Source: a virus. From it: 37,359 nt of DNA. The notes beneath the pieces are model-generated. The model ran no database searches. It worked only from the letters and a program-made list of their open reading frames with translations, and was not told where the DNA came from. A program made the translations under genes and the position numbers. Shown here one piece after another: positions 895 through 36,070 of the stretch (its first letter is position 1; each line of letters starts with the position of its first letter). The DNA lies in the IMG/VR virus record IMGVR_UViG_3300033144_002427, positions 1-37,359 of that record; one strand, 5' to 3'.

Positions 895-2861
895 GTATGA
901 ACTCTATCAAAGTTTACTGGAAGAAGTTGATTTACGTATTTATTATAAATATCTTTTGTCACAACTTCTTGAGGGAGGTAATCATAACCAAGATCCCGGG
1001 CGTTCTTGGTGGGATCAGTTCTAAAAAGAAAACTAACTGCAACATAAGAATCCCAGTGTTGTAACAACCAGTCTATAATAAAAGGAACCTCATCTTTATC
1101 ATAACTAATAGTATTAGAAACATTATGGTCGCAGTAATGATTTTGTATTTTAAGATAACGATTTAATTGTGAAACGGCACTTTCTAAGTTCACTTCACAT
1201 TCGACCCCCTTATTTACGGTTTCAAATTCAATATGACTCCATTCTACGGGTAAACATACGATACAGCCTGTATTGTCAGAGGGGTTATCAATCACTTTAT
1301 AATTAGAAGCTTTCACAATGTCAACCATAGGATCGCTCTTAGAGAAATTCACCCAATTAAATATATAACGTCCTAGAGGCTTGTGAATCCCTTCAGTCGT
1401 GTCCATAATTTTACTTACAGTTCCCGAAGGCTTAACAGTCGTCACATTCTTCGGATGTTGAAGGTTTAACTCTTTTGCCATCGTGCGAGCAGCCGTTACC
1501 GCAGAATACTTAAAAGACTTCCAATCAAATTCTGAAAGATCTTCACGTTGTACTATACCGGTTACACCAACCCCACACAACCGAAGGAACTCATTATTTA
1601 AATGCCAAGATTCTTGTAATACACCATCCCGGAAGTCTACCACAGTTTGTCTATAATTCATTCTAGCAGCCAAAGCTAAAGCTCTATGTAAGCCAGAAGA
1701 ATCAAGATAATACTTAGAGACGTCCACTTCAACGAGGTTACAAAAGGATTTGTTAGATAGTAATATCTCAGCACAAGGATTCAATCCTTTGAACCACGGT
1801 GCCCTCTTTAACGCGGCCTCCCCATTAACCAGTCCTGGTTCGGAGCCTCCGCTACGTACTATCATATCAAATAGATTAGTTAATTCTGCCTTAGATGGTT
1901 TTCTATAGAATACTAAACTATTGTTAGATTGTTGACGATGTTTAAAATTATCTTCACTACACCTTTCTTTCGCTGTGGCAAATTCATACCATTCAGCACT
2001 ACCGTATTCACACAACGCTATTTCAGCACTTCTTCGTGAACTCAGTACGGTTCCCAACCAATTCATAATATCTAATAAATCAATTTTTGTTAACAGAGAT
2101 CCTGAACGTTTACTAAGGATTTCTGCAATAGCGGGGAACGCCACAGATATCGAGTCATCTCCGGATGATATCCATCCGTATCCTTTAAGTCTTTGTCCAG
2201 AAGGTCGAATTTCGGAAAAGTCAAACACCAATTTTGCACACTCATACTTGCCAGCAAGTAATTTTCCAACGGACTTTGCCCAAGCCTCGGCCGAATCACC
2301 GACACTAATTGTCCATATGTTATCTTCAAAGGTCTCTTCGTTTGTTTCTCGTCCACCTTTACCACTCCTTATTGTACGTATAACTTCTACTTCTGGAGTG
2401 GGCTTTCTAAAGCCCGTTAAGGTTCCAACAACGGGCGTAAAGCCTACTCCACAACCTTGTAGTAAAAGCCAGAAAGCATCTACTACATCATATACTGTTT
2501 CTATATTAGTATGTGAACAGTTAAACATAGAAGCTTCTCTCTTCTTGGATACGTCAGTTCCCCCCAACCATAAAGTTCTTCCGGCCGGAAGTAACTTCCT
2601 ATCATAAATTAAACCGTATAATTCATGTAATTCATCAGCCTGTTCCTGATTTAGTCTTATCCACTCTTTCATATCCTCTGATAAATCGTGTAAAGGAATC
2701 TCGGGATACTCTTTAGCAGTAAGTGCTCGTTCCCATAACCAACATTGATGAGCAATAACTCTTTGACAAGTATCATCCCAAGTTTCAAATTTATTGCCGC
2801 CATCTACTATAGGACGAGAATATGTTCTTCTAGTTATAATTTCTGCTCTAGTAGAGACCAC
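822..2861 (-). CDS. nrdJ: Adenosylcobalamin-dependent (class II) ribonucleotide reductase
   Basis: This 679-residue enzyme reduces ribonucleotides to deoxyribonucleotides for phage DNA synthesis. It resembles the monomeric B12-dependent reductase of Lactobacillus leichmannii (about 740 residues) rather than the two-subunit NrdA/NrdB. Visible signatures are the N-terminal redox cysteine in FNCSHTN, the GCGVGF loop, the active-site block LNPCAEILLSNKSFCN in the middle, and a C-terminal thiol pair, CLTGTC, that would shuttle electrons to the active site. The start is GTG at 2861, with the strong AAGGAGA site about six bases upstream. The first 14 bases overlap the 3' end of the exonuclease gene, so the two are co-transcribed. 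The C-terminal codons overlap the lysis lipoprotein on the opposite strand. Confidence 0.93.
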   Translation of the reverse strand: MVSTRAEIITRRTYSRPIVDGGNKFETWDDTCQRVIAHQCWLWERALTAKEYPEIPLHDLSEDMKEWIRLNQEQADELHELYGLIYDRKLLPAGRTLWLGGTDVSKKREASMFNCSHTNIETVYDVVDAFWLLLQGCGVGFTPVVGTLTGFRKPTPEVEVIRTIRSGKGGRETNEETFEDNIWTISVGDSAEAWAKSVGKLLAGKYECAKLVFDFSEIRPSGQRLKGYGWISSGDDSISVAFPAIAEILSKRSGSLLTKIDLLDIMNWLGTVLSSRRSAEIALCEYGSAEWYEFATAKERCSEDNFKHRQQSNNSLVFYRKPSKAELTNLFDMIVRSGGSEPGLVNGEAALKRAPWFKGLNPCAEILLSNKSFCNLVEVDVSKYYLDSSGLHRALALAARMNYRQTVVDFRDGVLQESWHLNNEFLRLCGVGVTGIVQREDLSEFDWKSFKYSAVTAARTMAKELNLQHPKNVTTVKPSGTVSKIMDTTEGIHKPLGRYIFNWVNFSKSDPMVDIVKASNYKVIDNPSDNTGCIVCLPVEWSHIEFETVNKGVECEVNLESAVSQLNRYLKIQNHYCDHNVSNTISYDKDEVPFIIDWLLQHWDSYVAVSFLFRTDPTKNARDLGYDYLPQEVVTKDIYNKYVNQLLPVNFDRVHTYDELDEDECLTGTCALWSLMHPS

Positions 2862-3696
2862 TGATTTTCTCCTTGATATCTTCTACATTATCTAAACCTA
2901 TTGCTTCTTTACAATAAGTAATTTTATCTATTAATTCTATATTACGAAGTATATTTTCTTCAAACTTATTTGTATTCTGTATATATACAGCTTTACCGGG
3001 AATAGGTATATTATCATATACTTCAAAGGCATCGCCGTATTGTTTTAATAACGTATGTGCTCTCTTTGGACCTACTCCTGGAATACCTGAAACATTGTCT
3101 TTGCCGCCTACCAACACTTTAACACTTAAAGCCATTTCATGTGGATATTCATAATACTCACTCCAATTTTCCAGTGTATACTCTTTTCTAGTAACGTAAG
3201 AGAACCTATGTACATTGGGCATTAATAAAAGATCCCAGTCTTTATCTGAGGATATTAACCATATATCATCTTCAATATCTTTAAGAATATAATGGGTTAG
3301 ATAAGCTGCAATATCGTCTGCCTCTACTCCGTGATATTTAAGAATAGTGAAGCTACTCTTACAATATTCCATAGCCTCTTCATATCCTTTAAAGAAATCT
3401 AGGAAATCTTGTTTCTCTTCTTCGGTTTGTTGTGCTACTTTAGCTTCTCTATCCGCTTTATATTCAGGGTATAAATTCTTCCTATAAAAAGATTTTCCCC
3501 AATCGCAAGTAAGTATAACTCTACTAGCAGAGTAAGATTTAGCTAATGATTTAACTGTTTTATAATAATCTGCTGCGAAGTCAAATCTTCCTACGTGTTT
3601 ATATCTGAAGGCTAAATTGAGGGAATCAACTATAAGTATATTATTACCTTTAACTTCCTGAGCCTCTTCTAATTCATATATTGGTTTTCCTATCAT
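2848..3696 (-). CDS. 5'-3' exonuclease / flap endonuclease (T5 D15-type)
   Basis: A 282-residue member of the FEN-1/RNase H (T5 D15, T4 Rnh) nuclease family, which removes RNA primers and 5' flaps. Acidic metal-binding motifs are visible in order: VDSLNLAFR near residue 24, EADDIAAYLTHY near 125, and SSDKDWDLL near 150. The helix-hairpin-helix segment GIPGVGPKRAHTLLKQYG follows at about 205-222 and binds DNA. It overlaps the membrane-protein gene upstream and the reductase gene downstream by a few bases, placing it in one long operon. Its place next to the D14-like nuclease is as in T5. Confidence 0.93.
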   Translation of the reverse strand: MIGKPIYELEEAQEVKGNNILIVDSLNLAFRYKHVGRFDFAADYYKTVKSLAKSYSASRVILTCDWGKSFYRKNLYPEYKADREAKVAQQTEEEKQDFLDFFKGYEEAMEYCKSSFTILKYHGVEADDIAAYLTHYILKDIEDDIWLISSDKDWDLLLMPNVHRFSYVTRKEYTLENWSEYYEYPHEMALSVKVLVGGKDNVSGIPGVGPKRAHTLLKQYGDAFEVYDNIPIPGKAVYIQNTNKFEENILRNIELIDKITYCKEAIGLDNVEDIKEKISGLY

Positions 3697-4241: not shown

Positions 4242-4693
4242 ACGAACTCCGCATACTTACAAAAATCTGTTAGTAAACAAATACAGATTTCTTGTGGAAA
4301 AAGGATTAAATGTTTACATCCTGAATCTTGAACAGATAATTGGACATCTAAATGGGTAAAAGCAGCGAACCATTTTGAACGATTGTGCTTAAATACTAGT
4401 AATGGTAGTTTATTCATTTGATTGGCTTCTCTCTCAGCTTGATTAAACCAATTTAGAAAAGTGGGGGTTTTGCTAGTTAATAATTTTGTATTAATATGAT
4501 CGTCTTTATAGAATTTTACTTCTATGCAATATCTAGTATTAACTTGTGGAACGTAAATATCCCCCTTTAATTGATGAATTGCATCAAGGGCTCCACTCAT
4601 TGGGGTTCTTTCCCACATTAAACCTGTCAATTTACGAAGTTCATCTCTTGCGCCTATTTCTCCTGTTCTACCTTTTTGTCGAGAATCAACCAT
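4238..4693 (-). CDS. PD-(D/E)XK nuclease, likely Holliday-junction resolvase (T5 D14-like)
   Basis: This 151-residue protein shows the restriction-like nuclease core. A basic N-terminal helix (RQKGRTGEIGARDELRK) comes first. Then GALDAIHQLKGDIYV carries the metal-binding Asp, and EVKFYK about 20 residues later carries the Glu-x-Lys. This layout is that of Hjc-type resolvases and related phage nucleases. Its position beside the SbcC-like gene and the flap exonuclease matches T5 D14. A role in resolving branched recombination or replication intermediates before packaging is inferred from family and context. Confidence 0.75.
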   Translation of the reverse strand: MVDSRQKGRTGEIGARDELRKLTGLMWERTPMSGALDAIHQLKGDIYVPQVNTRYCIEVKFYKDDHINTKLLTSKTPTFLNWFNQAEREANQMNKLPLLVFKHNRSKWFAAFTHLDVQLSVQDSGCKHLILFPQEICICLLTDFCKYAEFV

Positions 4694-5267
4694 TCCATCT
4701 ATTTCCTTTTTTCATATTTTGTAATGGAGTTAACCATTGTAAATTAGTTTCTATATGTAAACCAGAAATATACTTACCATTTAAAGGTATTATATGATCT
4801 ACATGGTAGCCCTTAGGACAACATTCATACCAAAAATTTATTTTTTCTTGATTAGCCCAACTTGGGGTTCTATTTAATTTTGCCGCTCTATAATTAGCTT
4901 TTATAATTTTTCTTTTCGAAGGGTTTTCTTTGCTCCAATTTTTACTATTTTTATTATTACACTTTCTACATAGAGGTTGTAGCTTATAAATTGTATTACC
5001 TTTATTAAATTCTTTTATGTTTTTTATAGATTCACATTGTGTACAATACATCTTATCTTTCATAAATATAATATATTTATATAATTTAGCCTTTTTAGGC
5101 TTATCTGGAAACCATTTATCGGAAAATCTAGTATAAGCACTCGTTCCCATATTTGCTTGTTTACTACCATAAATACTTAATATAATATTACTCTTATTTC
5201 TATTATTGTATAAAGGTATATCATTATCAATAAAGTATTGTCTCACATACTTCTCTACTTCAATCAT
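4686..5267 (-). CDS. Freestanding HNH homing-type endonuclease
   Basis: About 193 residues. A central zinc ribbon (CTQC then CRKC, roughly residues 75-103) is followed by an HNH module with GYHVDHIIPLNG, then the ETNLQWLTPLQN helix and a basic C-terminus. Such enzymes cut DNA and promote their own spread between related phages. It sits between the SbcC and D14-like genes, interrupting a block I recall as contiguous in T5, so it is probably a mobile insertion. I start at ATG 5267 because GAGG sits seven bases upstream and the codon overlaps the end of sbcC; a TTG at 5273 is an alternative. A decayed relative of its C-terminus lies at 26647-26733. Confidence 0.9.
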   Translation of the reverse strand: MIEVEKYVRQYFIDNDIPLYNNRNKSNIILSIYGSKQANMGTSAYTRFSDKWFPDKPKKAKLYKYIIFMKDKMYCTQCESIKNIKEFNKGNTIYKLQPLCRKCNNKNSKNWSKENPSKRKIIKANYRAAKLNRTPSWANQEKINFWYECCPKGYHVDHIIPLNGKYISGLHIETNLQWLTPLQNMKKGNRWNG

Positions 5268-23393: not shown

Positions 23394-24315
23394 ATTCGTC
23401 TATACACCTCTGTATTTTTCTTGTTATAGAATCTTCATCATAGCAATCAACAAAGTGTTCATTAAAACAATAATGTATAAAATGAATTATTTTTCCCGGA
23501 TCTACTTCTCTAAACATTTTATTTTTTATATCTTCTAAATTTTTTACTGTAAAAGTTGCTGGCGAATAATCACAAGCACCACTAGTAAATACTCTTTTTT
23601 TATGAAATAAAGATTCGAAACCTGATCCAGAATTTACAGTATATATAGCTTTAGCCCCCGCTATAAGATGATGCATTGAACCTTCAATACGTTCACCGTG
23701 AAATTTAACATTTAAACTCATTGGATGGGGTTTTGTATATACTTTTATACCAGTATTTTCATATGCTTCATTAACTAACTTAGATAACTTTACTGTATCT
23801 ATATAAGCATGCTTAGCTACTGTATCGTGCGGTCTTTGCCCCATTACTAAAACATAATCATGTTTAGGTACTTTTGCATTTTCTGGTTGCTTTATTTTAC
23901 TTTCGTTTTTATCAATATAATTTTTCATTTTTGTGGCAGTATACCACAGAGCACTACCATAATCCCTTTCAGGAGCATACCTACTTACAGCTTCCGACCA
24001 ACCACTATATCCCTTTTTATCAAAATACATATAACCAGGAACATATCCCTTTTTGATATGCCACATATTTTTTTGATTACCATAAGTATGATGCCCCAAA
24101 TATATAGTATTGCGCTCAGTAACTACTGTATGGGGGGTCAAGTGTCTCACTTCATAGTCAACTCCTAATTTCTTACATACTTCAGGTATAGCATTGTATA
24201 ATTCCTCCACATCATAGAACCAAATCTTAGCTGTTCTAGCTTTCGATCTATCAATCCAATCCTGTGGTCTAGCTATTAATATTTTCACGTTCGTATCCAT
24301 AAAGTTTAAAATCAT
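23383..24315 (-). CDS. Capsule-synthesis-type glycosyltransferase (KpsS/LipB-like)
   Basis: A 310-residue cytosolic protein. The C-terminal half shows YTKPHPMS near 200, then HLIAGAKAIYTVNSGSGFES and FHKKRVFTSGACDYS, the conserved pattern of the capsule polysaccharide biosynthesis family that transfers Kdo-type sugars. The N-terminal half has a Rossmann-like layout. The start may be ATG 24300 instead of 24315; neither has a clear ribosome-binding site, and both overlap the upstream sulfotransferase gene. The natural acceptor in a phage is unknown. Confidence 0.75.
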   Translation of the reverse strand: MILNFMDTNVKILIARPQDWIDRSKARTAKIWFYDVEELYNAIPEVCKKLGVDYEVRHLTPHTVVTERNTIYLGHHTYGNQKNMWHIKKGYVPGYMYFDKKGYSGWSEAVSRYAPERDYGSALWYTATKMKNYIDKNESKIKQPENAKVPKHDYVLVMGQRPHDTVAKHAYIDTVKLSKLVNEAYENTGIKVYTKPHPMSLNVKFHGERIEGSMHHLIAGAKAIYTVNSGSGFESLFHKKRVFTSGACDYSPATFTVKNLEDIKNKMFREVDPGKIIHFIHYCFNEHFVDCYDEDSITRKIQRCIDEYEV

Positions 24316-24832
24316 CCCCTGCCCATATATTTATATAATGTATTAAATTATCTGTTTTTACATCTTCCCAAGTAAAATGTTCCCTTCGTAACTCATGTGG
24401 CATTTGTATATTCAATTCTGGATATAATGAATCGAAGATTTCTTCTGCTTTTTCTATTTGAATATAGTTCTTTATTCTACTATTTTTATGCCAATAAGAT
24501 TGAGAAGATGTTAGATCAGATCTAACATAACAATTTTTCTTCGCCATACTAGCATACCACTTAGCATAACTTAATTTAGTCTTTCTAGCACTTTTAGGAA
24601 CCCAGGCTTTATAATGATTAGTTACACAAGCATGATATAAAGCACAGAATCTTTCATAGGGATTACGTACAAAAGTAAAACTACTATAATCTTTTAATCC
24701 AGCAGGTATCTTTGTCGAATGATTAAACCCACCAGCAGCTCCAAAATAATCTTCCATTAGTTTAAATCCAGTATGTGAACCAGACTTAGGTGTGGTAATA
24801 AATACTAATTTATATTTATGAGATATTATCAT
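24269..24832 (-). CDS. Sulfotransferase-like protein 2
   Basis: A 187-residue sulfotransferase of the Sulfotransfer_2 type. The PAPS loop is TTPKSGSHT at residues 13-21, and the 3'-phosphate motif FVRNPYERFCALY is near 54. The C-terminal WAGDDFKLYGYE is shared with sulfotransferase 3, so the two are paralogues. It overlaps the TylF-like gene by 4 bases and the capsule-type gene by about 30-47. Confidence 0.85.
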   Translation of the reverse strand: MIISHKYKLVFITTPKSGSHTGFKLMEDYFGAAGGFNHSTKIPAGLKDYSSFTFVRNPYERFCALYHACVTNHYKAWVPKSARKTKLSYAKWYASMAKKNCYVRSDLTSSQSYWHKNSRIKNYIQIEKAEEIFDSLYPELNIQMPHELRREHFTWEDVKTDNLIHYINIWAGDDFKLYGYERENINS

Positions 24833-25416
24833 TTTGTTATCTTTATAGTAGCTTGATTTTTATGAGTTTTAGCTAGTGGTATGTATTCTCTATCAAATTC
24901 AATACACCACTCTTGTAAGGCTTTCCACTCCCCCTCTTCCCAACATTCGTAACTACTTTGTCCTTTTATTAATTCGTCAAATACTATTATAGTGTCTGGT
25001 AGTATTTGATCATTTAATTCTTTTAAAATAGTCTTTGCTGAAGAATATAAATCTGAATCAATATGTAAATATTTTATACTACCTGTATGTTCTTTCTTCC
25101 AATTAGGTATAGTATCCTTAAACCAGCCTTTTATCAGCTTTACATGTCCGGGGACAATAGGTAATCTACTTACAGAAAAGAACCCTTTATTTTTTATATG
25201 GGATCTACTCCAGGCCCAAGACTCAGGTAAACCCTCGAAACTATCGAATCCATATATTTTTTGTGTAGTAAACTTAGCAATACGTTTTATAGTATTACCC
25301 ACATATACCCCAAACTCTATTACATAACCATCTAACTTAGCTTTTTCAAAAGCATTTCTTAAATGTTTTTCTTTATTATAGTATATGGGTATATCATTAA
25401 AATCTTCTATTTTCAT
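24829..25416 (-). CDS. TylF/macrocin-O-methyltransferase-family protein
   Basis: A 195-residue SAM-dependent methyltransferase. VIEFGVYVGNTIKRIA near residues 32-47 is the SAM-binding motif I, YGFDSFEGLPESW near 55 is typical for the TylF family, and LHIDSDLYSSAKTIL plus IIVFDEL give the metal-binding acidic residues. These enzymes methylate sugar hydroxyls. Lying between two sulfotransferases, it probably decorates the same glycan. Confidence 0.9.
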   Translation of the reverse strand: MKIEDFNDIPIYYNKEKHLRNAFEKAKLDGYVIEFGVYVGNTIKRIAKFTTQKIYGFDSFEGLPESWAWSRSHIKNKGFFSVSRLPIVPGHVKLIKGWFKDTIPNWKKEHTGSIKYLHIDSDLYSSAKTILKELNDQILPDTIIVFDELIKGQSSYECWEEGEWKALQEWCIEFDREYIPLAKTHKNQATIKITK

Positions 25417-26000
25417 CTTTTCTCGTATCCATATAATTCAAAATCTTTACCTGCCCATAGATTTACTTTCTCAATAATTTCAGGTGTAGCTAATTCATCA
25501 AAAGATTCATATTTAGAACTACGATTAATATGTGAAAGATAAACTCGTTTCCCCTTTAAAAAGTCTAACTTAGCTATGTCCTCTTGTAAATTTTCAAACT
25601 TTAAAATATGTTTTACATTCTTAATTGGTTCTAAATATTTCCAAGTAGGTAACCATCTAATCCAATCGTAATCTTCATTCTGATCCTTTTGCACATCTTC
25701 TAATAGATAATCTACTAATTCCTCAAAAGATTCATAAGGAATGTTTAAATTATTTCTTTGCGCCATAGCATATATAGACGCTATTCTAGTATAAGGATTT
25801 CTAATAGCTACTATTTTATCGTATGAAGCAGCATAGCTAGGTGGTACTCTATCGTGATGTCTGAAGTTTCTAACCCCTTTTCTATTTCTTACATCTGGAT
25901 TTTTACTGCCACGTATATGTAAAAAGAAGGGACGTAAACTTTCCGATGCGGTCTTTGTCATACTTAAGTATACAAATTTATACTTTCTATTAACAATCAT
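25413..26000 (-). CDS. Sulfotransferase-like protein 3
   Basis: About 195 residues. The PAPS loop is LSMTKTASES at the N-terminus, the 3'-phosphate motif is VAIRNPYTRIASIY, and the C-terminal WAGKDFELYGYEKR matches sulfotransferase 2. I start at ATG 26000, which overlaps the stop of the GT8-like gene as ATGA and aligns the N-terminus with its paralogue; an upstream start at 26021 is possible but would overlap more. Substrate unknown. Confidence 0.85.
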   Translation of the reverse strand: MIVNRKYKFVYLSMTKTASESLRPFFLHIRGSKNPDVRNRKGVRNFRHHDRVPPSYAASYDKIVAIRNPYTRIASIYAMAQRNNLNIPYESFEELVDYLLEDVQKDQNEDYDWIRWLPTWKYLEPIKNVKHILKFENLQEDIAKLDFLKGKRVYLSHINRSSKYESFDELATPEIIEKVNLWAGKDFELYGYEKR

Positions 26001-26650
26001 ACCCAGTGTTTCTCCATCCAAGGTTCCTTTACTTCATGTGGTAAAGGTTTACCATGAAAGCATACTATACTAGAAGATTTTAAATTGCCCTGATAATTAG
26101 TATAATTAATACCCCTTAATTTTCCTTTACCACTAACATGCACCTTATAACTTATTACCTTACCCGGATACATCTCCTGCCAAATATCTGCGTGTGGATA
26201 CTGTATTTCGGGCCAGCCCTGGTCTCCTCCCCTGCATTTATTACCCCGCGTATAGTTTTTCCACATATGATGAACTGCTGGTGGGCGCCACATTTGTAAA
26301 CCTGATCCGAAACCTTCTTTACGATAAAAATCTCTTAAGATAATGAAGTCTCCCTCATATTTTAAAATCTCATTCAAATCGCCGGTAATTACTGTATCTA
26401 AGTCAAAATATAGAATTCGATTGTTTTGATTATATAACGTTTTATTATATAATCCTATTTTGCTATACCAATCCCCCGTGTTAAAGGGTATAGGTTGAGT
26501 ATACACCCTATTATCAATACCCAGAGGGTTGTCTGTAAAACATGTAAATAGGAAATTTTTTGTAGTATTACGTAAAATACCTTTATATAATTTATTAACA
26601 TATTCTGAACCGTACTTAGTTCCAAATTTTAAACATATTATATGTATCAT
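25997..26650 (-). CDS. GT8-like glycosyltransferase
   Basis: A 217-residue putative sugar transferase. RILYFDLDTVITGDL near residues 80-94 contains the Asp-x-Asp metal motif of GT-A enzymes. GFGSGLQMWRPPAV and the C-terminal FHGKPLPHEV with a catalytic-type His fit GT8 and related families. Its ATG overlaps the stop of the HNH fragment upstream. As the first true gene of the glycan cassette it would add sugars that later enzymes methylate and sulfate; this order is inferred. Confidence 0.75.
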   Translation of the reverse strand: MIHIICLKFGTKYGSEYVNKLYKGILRNTTKNFLFTCFTDNPLGIDNRVYTQPIPFNTGDWYSKIGLYNKTLYNQNNRILYFDLDTVITGDLNEILKYEGDFIILRDFYRKEGFGSGLQMWRPPAVHHMWKNYTRGNKCRGGDQGWPEIQYPHADIWQEMYPGKVISYKVHVSGKGKLRGINYTNYQGNLKSSSIVCFHGKPLPHEVKEPWMEKHWV

Positions 26651-30939: not shown

Positions 30940-31305
30940 TAACACTTGAATATTTCTGTTGACAGGCTATCCCATACCCCGCATAAGCTAAGCTGTTTAG
31001 GCCGCCATTGCAAGTTCGACATAGGCATCCTCAGATGCTCCCATTATAGGGAAGTCGATTATGTTATCATTTCCGATTACATTGTTAATACTTACGGTAT
31101 CAAACGAGTTGTCCATTTAGCTTTCGTATGTCAATCTATTCCAAGTCAGCCCCATCAGATACACTCTAATCCCCCTCCCCTGCAAGGGCGGCTTCCATGT
31201 TGCAGCACAGTGAGCGATTGCCCATGAAAGTGTACGTGGTGGAGCTGAAGGGATTCGAACCCTTGTCTTGTCCATCTATTTCTAAATTTCATACAACTAT
31301 ATGTT
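30940..31305 (-). ncRNA. ssrA: Circularly permuted two-piece tmRNA
   Basis: tmRNA rescues stalled ribosomes by acting as tRNA-Ala and then as a short mRNA. Here the order is permuted. First comes the acceptor piece (about 31305-31237): one P2 strand, T arm AAGGG-TTCGAAT-CCCTT and CAGCTCC-A-CCA. Then an 83-base intervening segment, then the coding piece starting GGGGCTG at 31153. GGGGCTG pairs with CAGCTCC along seven positions, with G3-U70, the alanine identity pair. P2 pairs 31120-31115 with 31287-31282 and 31112-31107 with 31298-31293. The tag frame ends ELAMAA-TAA at 30997; the resume codon is GCA at 31038 or GGA at 31041, giving ASEDAYVELAMAA with or without a leading G. Flanks of the intervening segment (31227-31234 with 31160-31167) also pair. 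The 3' limit and the outer 5' end are approximate. Confidence 0.9.
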
Positions 31306-31498
31306 TAGCACAATGTTTGCTTATAGCAACTGTATTGCCATAAATACGTAGTAGTACATTATTCTTTGTACTACCTATACATTTTATCTTTGCACCTTCA
31401 ATAAGACCTAATGTCATAATTCGGAGAATACAATTACAGGATGTATCTACTTTCTTTATTGTTACTGTACTTCCTACTTCTAATTCATTTAGTCTCAT
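31289..31498 (-). CDS. FeoA-like SH3-fold protein
   Basis: A 69-residue protein matching the FeoA domain along its length: MRLNELEVGSTVTIKKV, then RIMTLGLIEGAKIKCIG, then LLRIYGNTVAISKHCAKHI. FeoA is a small cytosolic partner of the ferrous-iron transporter FeoB, and the same fold forms the C-terminal domain of DtxR-type regulators; no feoB is in the window. AAAGG lies about seven bases before the ATG. The gene is wedged between rnpB and ssrA: its ribosome-binding site overlaps the 3' strand of the rnpB P1 helix, and its last codons form a P2 strand of the tmRNA. Translation and RNA maturation should therefore conflict. Confidence 0.8.
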   Translation of the reverse strand: MRLNELEVGSTVTIKKVDTSCNCILRIMTLGLIEGAKIKCIGSTKNNVLLRIYGNTVAISKHCAKHIVV

Positions 31499-31500
31499 TT

Positions 31501-31746
31501 ATTACCTTTATAGCCGAGATTCTGTATTAATACACATTCATCTATTGGCCACTACCCGTCGTCATTAGGGCTTCGGTTCCCTTCGAACTGTTTGTGTTGC
31601 AGGCTATATACGCAGTAATAGTGAGGAAGGTGGGACTTGAACCCACTTCAGCTTTCGCTTACCAAGTATGTTTCAACTCTGCATTTCCTCTTCTGCGCCT
31701 AAGCGCCTGTCCCGAGCTTCCTCTCCGTAGAGCGTGTAATTGTAAT
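31501..31746 (-). ncRNA. rnpB: RNase P RNA, compact phage-encoded form
   Basis: This is the catalytic RNA that cuts 5' leaders from pre-tRNAs. The 5' conserved block GAGGAAGCTCGGGA (31723-31710) and the 3' block AGATGAATG...ACAGAATCTCGGCT (31543-31512) match the universal RNase P core. P4 forms between 31718-31710 and 31519-31512 with the single bulged U at the expected place. P1 (31746-31742 with 31505-31501) and P2 (31738-31734 with 31535-31531) close the molecule. A GGTAAGCGAAAG block followed by the hairpin GTGGG-TTCAAGT-CCCAC fits the P10-P12 region. At about 246 bases it is much shorter than the E. coli RNA (377), so several peripheral helices are missing. I see no rnpA; the host protein would be needed. 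Confidence 0.9.
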
Positions 31747-31747
31747 T

Positions 31748-31819
31748 TGGCAAACGAGGTCGGAGTTGAACCGACTCGACAAGGTTTTGGAGACCTGCCC
31801 GCTCCCCAGCTGCCTCGAA
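31748..31819 (-). tRNA. tRNA-Trp(CCA), degenerate
   Basis: CCA is encoded, the T arm GTCGG-TTCAACT-CCGAC is perfect, and the anticodon loop CTCCAAA is typical for Trp. The acceptor stem has two T-T mismatches and the D region is about three bases short. Its CCA end lies one base from the first pairing base of rnpB. Confidence 0.75.
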
Positions 31820-31897: not shown

Positions 31898-31905
31898 TTA
31901 ATTTT

Positions 31906-31975
31906 TGGAGACTCGGGGCGGAATCGAACCGCCCACCACAAGGATTGAAAGCCTCTAGTCCACCGTTGCCGAATC
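31906..31975 (-). tRNA. Glu-like tRNA(TTC), D arm reduced
   Basis: The acceptor GATTCGG/CCGAGTC and the T arm GGCGG-TTCGATT-CCGCC are good and CCA is encoded. The loop CTTTCAA would give TTC. Only about 12 bases lie between acceptor and anticodon stem, so there is no normal D arm, and the anticodon stem is weak. It may be a decayed or unconventional tRNA. A complete tRNA-Glu(TTC) lies at 33386-33460. Confidence 0.55.
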
Positions 31976-32278
31976 TATCCATTTTGTATATTCTGCCATA
32001 CTCTTATTAGAGTATAGCTTCACCATCGCAGTTACTCTCGCCCAGACACTTACTGGGATATCTTGCGGGTATCTTTCGATTTTCGCAAGCGCTGTGCCCT
32101 TCGAAAATGCATAGGCAATATGAGTAGCACGACACTCAGGACGTACACCATAAATACGATGGAGATAAAGCCACTCTCTAGTGTCTCCATTGTTTCGTTT
32201 CTCTTCTGTTCTAATAATCCTAGACTCTTGGGCTAGGTGTTTTGCTTTTACTTTTAAAGCTAATTTCCGATTTATCAT
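31955..32278 (-). CDS. Unknown basic protein ending inside the Glu-like tRNA
   Basis: A 107-residue basic helical protein with no recognised motif. Its ATG at 32278 lies only four bases past the -10 box of the promoter at 32282-32310, upstream of where transcription should begin, so either another promoter is used or translation starts further in. The stop codon lies 21 bases inside the Glu-like tRNA gene. Confidence 0.5.
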   Translation of the reverse strand: MINRKLALKVKAKHLAQESRIIRTEEKRNNGDTREWLYLHRIYGVRPECRATHIAYAFSKGTALAKIERYPQDIPVSVWARVTAMVKLYSNKSMAEYTKWIDSATVD

Positions 32279-34661: not shown

Positions 34662-34849
34662 TAAAGTTTCTCTACCCCTACTATATATTCATCATTAAAA
34701 TAAAAATTATTAGTTTCTCCTGGTCTCAGTACATATCGTGGAGATTTTTCAGGAATCTCTAATACATATTTCGTTATTGCGTTTTCTTTTAATATACCAT
34801 TAATTAATAATGATTCTGTTTCAGATTTATTTTCTATATAAAATTTCAT
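34661..34849 (-). CDS. Small protein, unknown function
   Basis: About 62 residues from ATG 34849 (a TTG at 34855 is also possible), overlapping the end of the GNGNSR gene. It has a beta-rich composition with SPRYVLRPGETNNFYFNDEY. No known motif. The TAG stop overlaps the first base of tRNA-Leu(TAG). Confidence 0.6.
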   Translation of the reverse strand: MKFYIENKSETESLLINGILKENAITKYVLEIPEKSPRYVLRPGETNNFYFNDEYIVGVEKL

Positions 34850-35441
34850 TTTCAAATGTCTTGTATGTTATAAATTCTGTAGTATTTTCCGGCCAATTAT
34901 CTTTTATATTTACATTTATAAATATAGTTTCTTTAGCCGCCTCTACTGCTTGTACATTATGTTTAAACATTTTTTCTAAATTTCTTCTCTTATCTTTAGG
35001 ATAATTTTTAGTATCATTATAAATATTACCTTTATAACAATCCATCCCCAACATATAACATTTTGATGGTCTTATTAATAATGAAACTATTTTAATAGCC
35101 AAACATCCTGAACTATTTACTTCTGGTACTTTCCAAGCTATAAAGTGTTTTAGATCTCGTTCTCTATTAGCAAGAGTTATACAACAGTTTTCTTTAGCAT
35201 AATTCTGTGCTTCTTTTATCATACGATAATTTACTGCTACAAGTATATCGGGAGAAAAATCTCTATATAAAGCATTACAGCCTATTATTGTACCTTTTCC
35301 TCTTAGCTTTTTTAAATCGAAATTTTCTCTACTATTGCCGTTACCTACTATAAATACCGGATCTGTCATAAATTCTAATTTGTCAAATAGCGGATTAGGT
35401 CTTATTAATTTTCCTTTACTATCTTTTAAAAGGTTAAGCAT
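34827..35441 (-). CDS. GNGNSR-motif Rossmann-like protein B
   Basis: A 204-residue protein with FIVGNGNSRENFDLKKLRGK near residue 30, TIIGCNALYRDFSPDILVAV, SGCLAIKIVSLL, and CYMLGMDCYKGNIYND. The pattern of a glycine-rich NGxS loop, then GCN and a pD-x-x-x-x-D segment recalls GT42 sialyltransferases and DUF115-type proteins that handle nucleotide sugars. It is a tandem paralogue of the next gene upstream and overlaps it by 16 bases. The glycan link is inference. Confidence 0.65.
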   Translation of the reverse strand: MLNLLKDSKGKLIRPNPLFDKLEFMTDPVFIVGNGNSRENFDLKKLRGKGTIIGCNALYRDFSPDILVAVNYRMIKEAQNYAKENCCITLANRERDLKHFIAWKVPEVNSSGCLAIKIVSLLIRPSKCYMLGMDCYKGNIYNDTKNYPKDKRRNLEKMFKHNVQAVEAAKETIFINVNIKDNWPENTTEFITYKTFENEILYRK

Positions 35442-36070
35442 AATACTTTTGTTTTAAAATCTTGAATAGACATAAACTCATATTTACCAGTATCATGACA
35501 AGCTTTGGGCCAGGTGTCTTTTTCATTTACATTAATATAAATAGTCTCCCCCACACCCTGTAATACTTTTAAATAATAAGTATTAACTCCTTTAAAATTT
35601 TTCAATGTATTAGGGGCATAATTCGCTGTACCATCATACATATTACCCGGATAACCATCCATTCCCAGCATATAACACTTTTTTGGTTTCATAAGTTGAG
35701 AAATCATTTTCATTCCAAAACATCCTGTAGTATTAAACTTATCTGTTCTGAAACGAAAAGATCCTGGTATTGCAACACTTCTAGCACCTGGAATTATACA
35801 AGTATTTTCTCTACAATAATCCGATTTTTTTATTTCTTTTAGCATTTTAGCGTCAATAGCTAACAAAATATCAGGAGAAAAATCTCTAAAAATAGCGTTA
35901 CAACCTATAATTGTACCTAGAGGCCGTAATTGTTCTAAGTCAAAGGTTTTTCTACTATTACCGTTGCCTATAAGAAATACTACATCAGTTAAATATTTTT
36001 TATTTTCTTCTTTACTAAAGGGACTCGCCCTCTCTTTCGAGGGACGAGCCACCGGTTGCTTAGGTGTCAA
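35426..36070 (-). CDS. GNGNSR-motif Rossmann-like protein A
   Basis: About 214 residues from a TTG start at 36070 with GAAGGA seven bases upstream; GTG 36052 is an alternative. It shows FLIGNGNSRKTFDLEQLRPL, TIIGCNAIFRDFSPDILLAI, TTGCFGMKMISQL and CYMLGMDGYPGNMYDG, aligning with the downstream paralogue along its length, and has a short basic N-terminal extension. The start overlaps the stop of the phosphoesterase gene. The pair may act as a heterodimer or on two substrates. Confidence 0.65.
   Translation of the reverse strand: MTPKQPVARPSKERASPFSKEENKKYLTDVVFLIGNGNSRKTFDLEQLRPLGTIIGCNAIFRDFSPDILLAIDAKMLKEIKKSDYCRENTCIIPGARSVAIPGSFRFRTDKFNTTGCFGMKMISQLMKPKKCYMLGMDGYPGNMYDGTANYAPNTLKNFKGVNTYYLKVLQGVGETIYINVNEKDTWPKACHDTGKYEFMSIQDFKTKVLCLTF

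Follow-up and report, generated by a model that had tools for sequence, protein, structure and literature searches.

The DNA analysed here, referred to as the window, is the IMG/VR virus record IMGVR_UViG_3300033144_002427, which has 37,359 bases. As judged from its sequence the phage is T5-like and tRNA-rich. Its DNA polymerase A has matches in T5-type phages (41% over 99% of its length), and a neighbouring 107-aa protein has its best-covered relatives among the Delepquintavirus-group phages of Stenotrophomonas. An island with at least 19 tRNA genes lies on the minus strand between about 34.7 and 27.7 kb, and includes, in this order, a tRNA-Trp, an RNase P-like RNA (rnpB), a feoA-like gene, a permuted tmRNA, two tRNA-Ser and a gene encoding an HD protein (Table 1). 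No clear excess of promoters was found inside the region. The tRNA-Trp was missed by ARAGORN, as was a further apparent tRNA-like sequence at 31900-31982 (-), read near 31907-31983. Near the island two runs of ORFs (24269-26021 and 34827-36070, both on the minus strand) were read by eye as sulfotransferase-type, methyltransferase-type and repeated related proteins.

Table 1. Features of the feoA locus in the window and in the related contig L002
Feature	Position	Strand	Evidence and remarks
tRNA, read as tRNA-Trp (CCA)	31755..31817	-	Weak match to the tRNA-Sec model; the same neighbour is tRNA-Trp in L002 at 1859-1935
RNase P-like RNA (rnpB)	~31746-31501	-	P1 31746-31742/31505-31501; P2 31738-31734/31535-31531; P4 31718-31710/31519-31512, with bulged U31715
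feoA Shine-Dalgarno AAAGG	31505..31509	-	Sequence and structure; linker between P4 (31519-31512) and P1 (31505-31501)
feoA-like gene, 69 aa	31289..31498	-	Pfam FeoA, AlphaFold, Foldseek; purifying selection in comparison with L002
feoA 3' end and stop overlapping the tmRNA P2 region	31289..31298	-	RF04321, sequence, comparison with L002
tmRNA acceptor piece	31237..31298	-	RF04321; from P2 5' strand 31298-31294 to CCA 31239-31237
tmRNA coding piece	30997..31153	-	RF04321 and RF01849 alignments; from acceptor 5' strand GGGGCUG 31153-31147 to the tag stop
L002 rnpB	~2046-2273	+	
L002 feoA	3001-3213		
L002 tmRNA	from 3368		
L002 ORF, 205 aa	2365-2982		Between RNA genes; absent from the window
L002 ORF, 43 aa	3233-3364		Between RNA genes; absent from the window

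The feoA product matches the Pfam family FeoA (PF04023) over its full length with 47.3 bits (cut-off 23, E 2.2e-12). The AlphaFold model, made from an alignment of two sequences, has a pLDDT of 92.4, and the solved structure that Foldseek places first is FeoA of Bacteroides fragilis (7r7b; TM 0.88, 27% identity over the fold match), followed by other FeoA proteins and by SH3-like domains of metal regulators of the DtxR/IdeR/MntR type. These results bear out the identification of a FeoA-like gene made in an earlier note from the sequence alone, and give no support to its suggestion that the SH3 fold is used here for RNA binding. Like the Bacteroides protein and the Pfam family, the phage protein has an SH3-like fold and a full-length profile match; it differs from known FeoA in being encoded by a phage, in having no FeoB in the contigs and in a set of cysteines and histidines (C21, C23, H62, C63 and H66) kept between the two phage proteins, which may suggest a metal site. 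FeoA seems rare in phages, since no PHROGs family matches it, no viral predicted structure does so at E<=0.001, and the sole FeoA match in 50,697 phage records is a doubtful one, in an unannotated 8.7-kb human faecal record. No relative was found in plasmids, and the FeoA matches in Clostridia have mainly the start of the protein in common with the phage FeoA.

A search of the viral collection by protein and DNA found only one other contig with feoA, IMGVR_UViG_3300033142_000702 (L002; 55,984 bases), a syntenic T5-like phage contig which is collinear with the window across most of what the two have in common and whose FeoA scores 50.2 bits against the Pfam family. The two feoA genes differ by 52 nucleotides, while 48 of the 69 residues (70%) are identical. 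In 10,000 neutral simulations with 52 differences the maximum was 47 identical residues, none reaching 48, and dN/dS between the two genes is about 0.43. The substitutions are only weakly biased by codon position (16, 15 and 21; P 0.18). Taken together, the simulations and dN/dS show purifying selection on the protein frame. The earlier note held that a frame broken in a relative with both RNAs intact would mark feoA as a by-product; in L002 the frame, rnpB and the tmRNA are all intact. We conclude that this is a genuine feoA gene, selected as a protein.

Downstream of feoA, the permuted two-piece tmRNA (31298-30997, minus strand) matches RF04321 with 93.4 bits (cut-off 47), and the tmRNA of L002 with 119.4 bits. 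Its tag ORF (31074-30997, minus strand) reads (G)NDNIIDFPIMGASEDAYVELAMAA and ends in small hydrophobic residues, and the CCA is encoded, as read in the sequence. ARAGORN calls the tmRNA in L002, with the tag ANDNIIAFPIVGNDFGIEAELAMAA, and makes no call in the window. The acceptor stem is GGGGCUG/CAGCUCC in the window, with a G3-U pair, and GGGGGUG/CACCUCC in L002, a compensatory change. In P2, AGUUG (31298-31294) pairs with CAACU (31111-31107). Since feoA ends in ATA GTT GTA TGA (31300-31289), the P2 5' strand takes in the whole of codon 68 (GTT), with the last base of codon 67 (ATA) before it and the first base of codon 69 (GTA) after it; the stop TGA (31291-31289) comes next. The earlier note had described this overlap correctly. 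A permuted two-piece tmRNA, accompanied by a glutamine riboswitch, has been described in the OM43 phage Melnitz (PMC9004378). Both are phage-borne permuted ssrA genes of the alphaproteobacterial type; unlike that of Melnitz, the tmRNA of the window lies in a T5-like tRNA island, has its P2 5' strand within the end of a protein gene and, by Rfam, has no glutamine riboswitch in the window. SmpB was not found in the window or L002 contigs, which are possibly incomplete records.

The RNA upstream of feoA is labelled RNase P-like because Rfam 15 gives it no match to RF00010 even at E<=10. In bacterial RNase P RNA, P4 carries a bulged U and forms a pseudoknot across P2, and the GGU loop of L15 binds the CCA of tRNA. 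The conserved region V motif AGATGAATG-N-ACAGAA has a single match in the window, and 100 shuffles gave none; of the loci compared, only the window, L002, E. coli rnpB and two further contigs, L012 and L013, have it. This test is stronger than a Smith-Waterman comparison, in which the best match of E. coli region V falls exactly at the predicted site with a score of 31 (shuffle maximum 33) and region I gives nothing significant. A structure was built by hand with P4 pseudoknotted across P2, and all 41 of its pairs are standard in both phages, the structure having been drawn from the same two sequences that were used to score it. Three pairs are changed on both sides, one in P4 (eight pairs in both phages, with one G-C to A-U change) and two in P7. 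Sliding the structure along the sequence lowered the paired fraction to 35-48%; the shuffle control, weak with two sequences, was as high in 58 of 500 cases. Pairing in both phages is thus support, not proof, for an RNase P-like RNA. Like type A RNase P RNA (RF00010) it has the region V motif, a pseudoknotted P4 with its bulged U, and P1, P2, P3 and P5, but it is reduced and divergent (about 246 nt, and about 230 nt in L002) and is missed by Rfam. Inspection by eye gave no confident identification of the L15 GGU loop. Within the specificity domain, 31622-31693 (-) has a tRNA score of 25.7 bits, below the cut-off, with a stem GAGGAAA/CUUCCUC and a T-arm-like GUGGGUUCAAGUCCCAC; it was taken as the P10-P12 region instead of a tRNA because L002 keeps a shorter GUGGG/CCCAC there with no tRNA features.

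The rnpB of L012 (IMGVR_UViG_3300044470_000379; 100,724 bases, 4462-4786) also stands among phage tRNA genes, but reaches 209 bits with RF00010. It and the partial copy in L013 (155,256 bases, 1-87), a 155-kb contig which shares the region V stretch of L012, are type A RNase P RNAs within tRNA arrays of tRNA-rich phage contigs. Neither the window nor the L002 contig, both possibly incomplete records, yielded an RNase P protein. Arguably, the divergent RNase P-like RNA of these phages is the finding of greater interest.

At the start of feoA the overlap with rnpB is smaller than had been thought. The ribosome-binding site had been placed in the P1 3' strand, and it is true that the strand, GTAAT (31505-31501), forms the spacer ahead of the ATG (31498); however, the core of the Shine-Dalgarno sequence belongs to the linker that joins P4 to P1, and its last G is the sole base in common with P1. 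To say that the feoA mRNA would be destroyed by folding was an overstatement, because the modelled RNA leaves this linker single-stranded. The matching rnpB end of L002 is AAAGTAAT, with one G fewer. Two candidate structures at feoA were set aside: a hairpin in which the P4 3' strand would pair with the start and mask it, whose z of 0.6 is not significant, and a terminator-like stem (31375-31350), which falls within the coding sequence and is unsupported as a terminator.

The order in L002 is tRNA-Trp, rnpB, tRNA-Lys, a 205-aa ORF, feoA, a 43-aa ORF, tmRNA, two tRNA-Ser and the HD protein, and neither additional ORF has a match in Pfam or in the window. Here feoA overlaps neither RNA; its last codons and stop (HIEVG*) are its own and come 154 bases before the tmRNA match begins. 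The protein of the window ends in HIVV*, and the sequence switches at ATATAG from the end of feoA to the start of the tmRNA. With both RNAs and FeoA intact and no overlap in this one relative, none of the three genes depends on either overlap, and the interlocking is lineage-specific. The close arrangement announced in the earlier note is thus real in the window, but its reading as a meaningful interlock finds no support in L002; it is best read as genome packing and not as a conserved switch, as far as two sequences can indicate.

The borders of the L002 modules carry short direct repeats: AGTAATATTA (10 bp, at 2265 and 2978) at the rnpB end, for which the chance of such a repeat is 0.7% by shuffles and 0.16% by genomic background, and ATATAG (6 bp, at 3197 and 3364) at the tmRNA start. 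Weighing against an origin by recombination between these repeats are their shortness, the AT-rich regions in which they lie and, on the rnpB side, a further dozen bases past the repeat that the window also lacks. We consider it probable that the packed arrangement arose by short-repeat junctions in an RNA-gene island that bears cargo, and that the product has a role in the host Feo system or iron. feoA would be the cargo, placed between the RNase P-like RNA and the permuted tmRNA, and the lineage of the window would have come to lack the tRNA-Lys and 205-aa ORF on one flank and the 43-aa ORF on the other through recombination between the repeats. Through the junction on the tmRNA side, the P2 strand of the tmRNA would have come to supply the final codons and the stop of feoA, and the junction on the rnpB side would have placed its Shine-Dalgarno sequence at the edge of the P1 helix. 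The three genes are presumably co-transcribed, and FeoA would probably be translated from a long precursor, before RNA processing or in competition with it.

Deletion seems the simplest reading, though in a comparison of two genomes only, an insertion in the L002 lineage would leave the same pattern. A less likely account, which still deserves some weight, is accordingly that the modules were inserted in L002 with target duplications, which would also leave direct repeats at their borders, and that the tight overlap is ancestral; a stop codon drawn from the tmRNA strand is, however, more easily explained as the product of a junction.

It is unlikely that the overlaps couple the genes functionally, so that maturation of rnpB and tmRNA competes with translation of feoA and FeoA is made only while processing lags. 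The position of the stop and last codons at the 5' end of the tmRNA acceptor piece, and of the Shine-Dalgarno sequence at the rnpB 3' end, would suit such a coupling, in which a cut of the precursor at P2 might strip feoA of its stop and leave a nonstop mRNA to be tagged by the same tmRNA. But in L002 the stop is well separated from the tmRNA and no rnpB stands beside the start, and host factors would be needed, since neither SmpB nor RNase P protein was found in the two contigs. In its fullest form, which we regard as very improbable, feoA would be written through the processing sites of both RNAs, each transcript giving either FeoA or the two RNAs, and maturation of the tmRNA would leave the feoA mRNA without a stop and make it a substrate of that very tmRNA; if true, the level of FeoA would be a read-out of RNA-processing capacity during infection.

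As to the protein itself, binding of FeoA to FeoB depends on nucleotide and stabilises the GTP-bound form of FeoB, as described for the fused system of Bacteroides (PMC8980893). No FeoB (FeoB_N) was found in the window or L002 contigs, both possibly fragments, and therefore any Feo role would need the FeoB of the host. A feoB in the same genome or operon is the usual, not an obligatory, companion of feoA, and its absence bears on the role of the protein and not on its fold or family. With FeoB, RNase P protein and SmpB all missing from these possibly incomplete contigs, all three products would need host partners. By analogy with its family the phage FeoA is probably cargo with an effect on the Feo (FeoB) system of the host or on iron homeostasis. 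There is little to recommend the view that the fold now serves the RNA island as an RNA-binding or regulatory protein, for instance aiding rnpB or tmRNA: feoA is kept beside the RNAs in both phages, FeoB is lacking and the shared cysteines and histidines could bind metal, but their retention fits iron or zinc biology equally well, the closest structures are ordinary FeoA and metal-regulator domains, and in L002 other genes intervene between feoA and the RNAs. That two adjacent RNA genes produced the frame by chance, as a by-product, can be dismissed, even with each end in or at an RNA gene: it matches FeoA in profile and fold, is kept in L002 where it sits outside both RNAs, and is under selection against amino-acid change, and is therefore not a by-product.

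If feoA is cargo packed by short-repeat junctions, the locus would illustrate a way in which protein genes may be gained and lost between RNA genes of an essential type, leaving chimeric ends behind. As the standard RNA library misses the reduced RNase P-like RNA described here, RNase P RNA may be under-counted in phages. A selected FeoA in a T5-like phage, finally, suggests that the phage adjusts the ferrous-iron uptake of its host.
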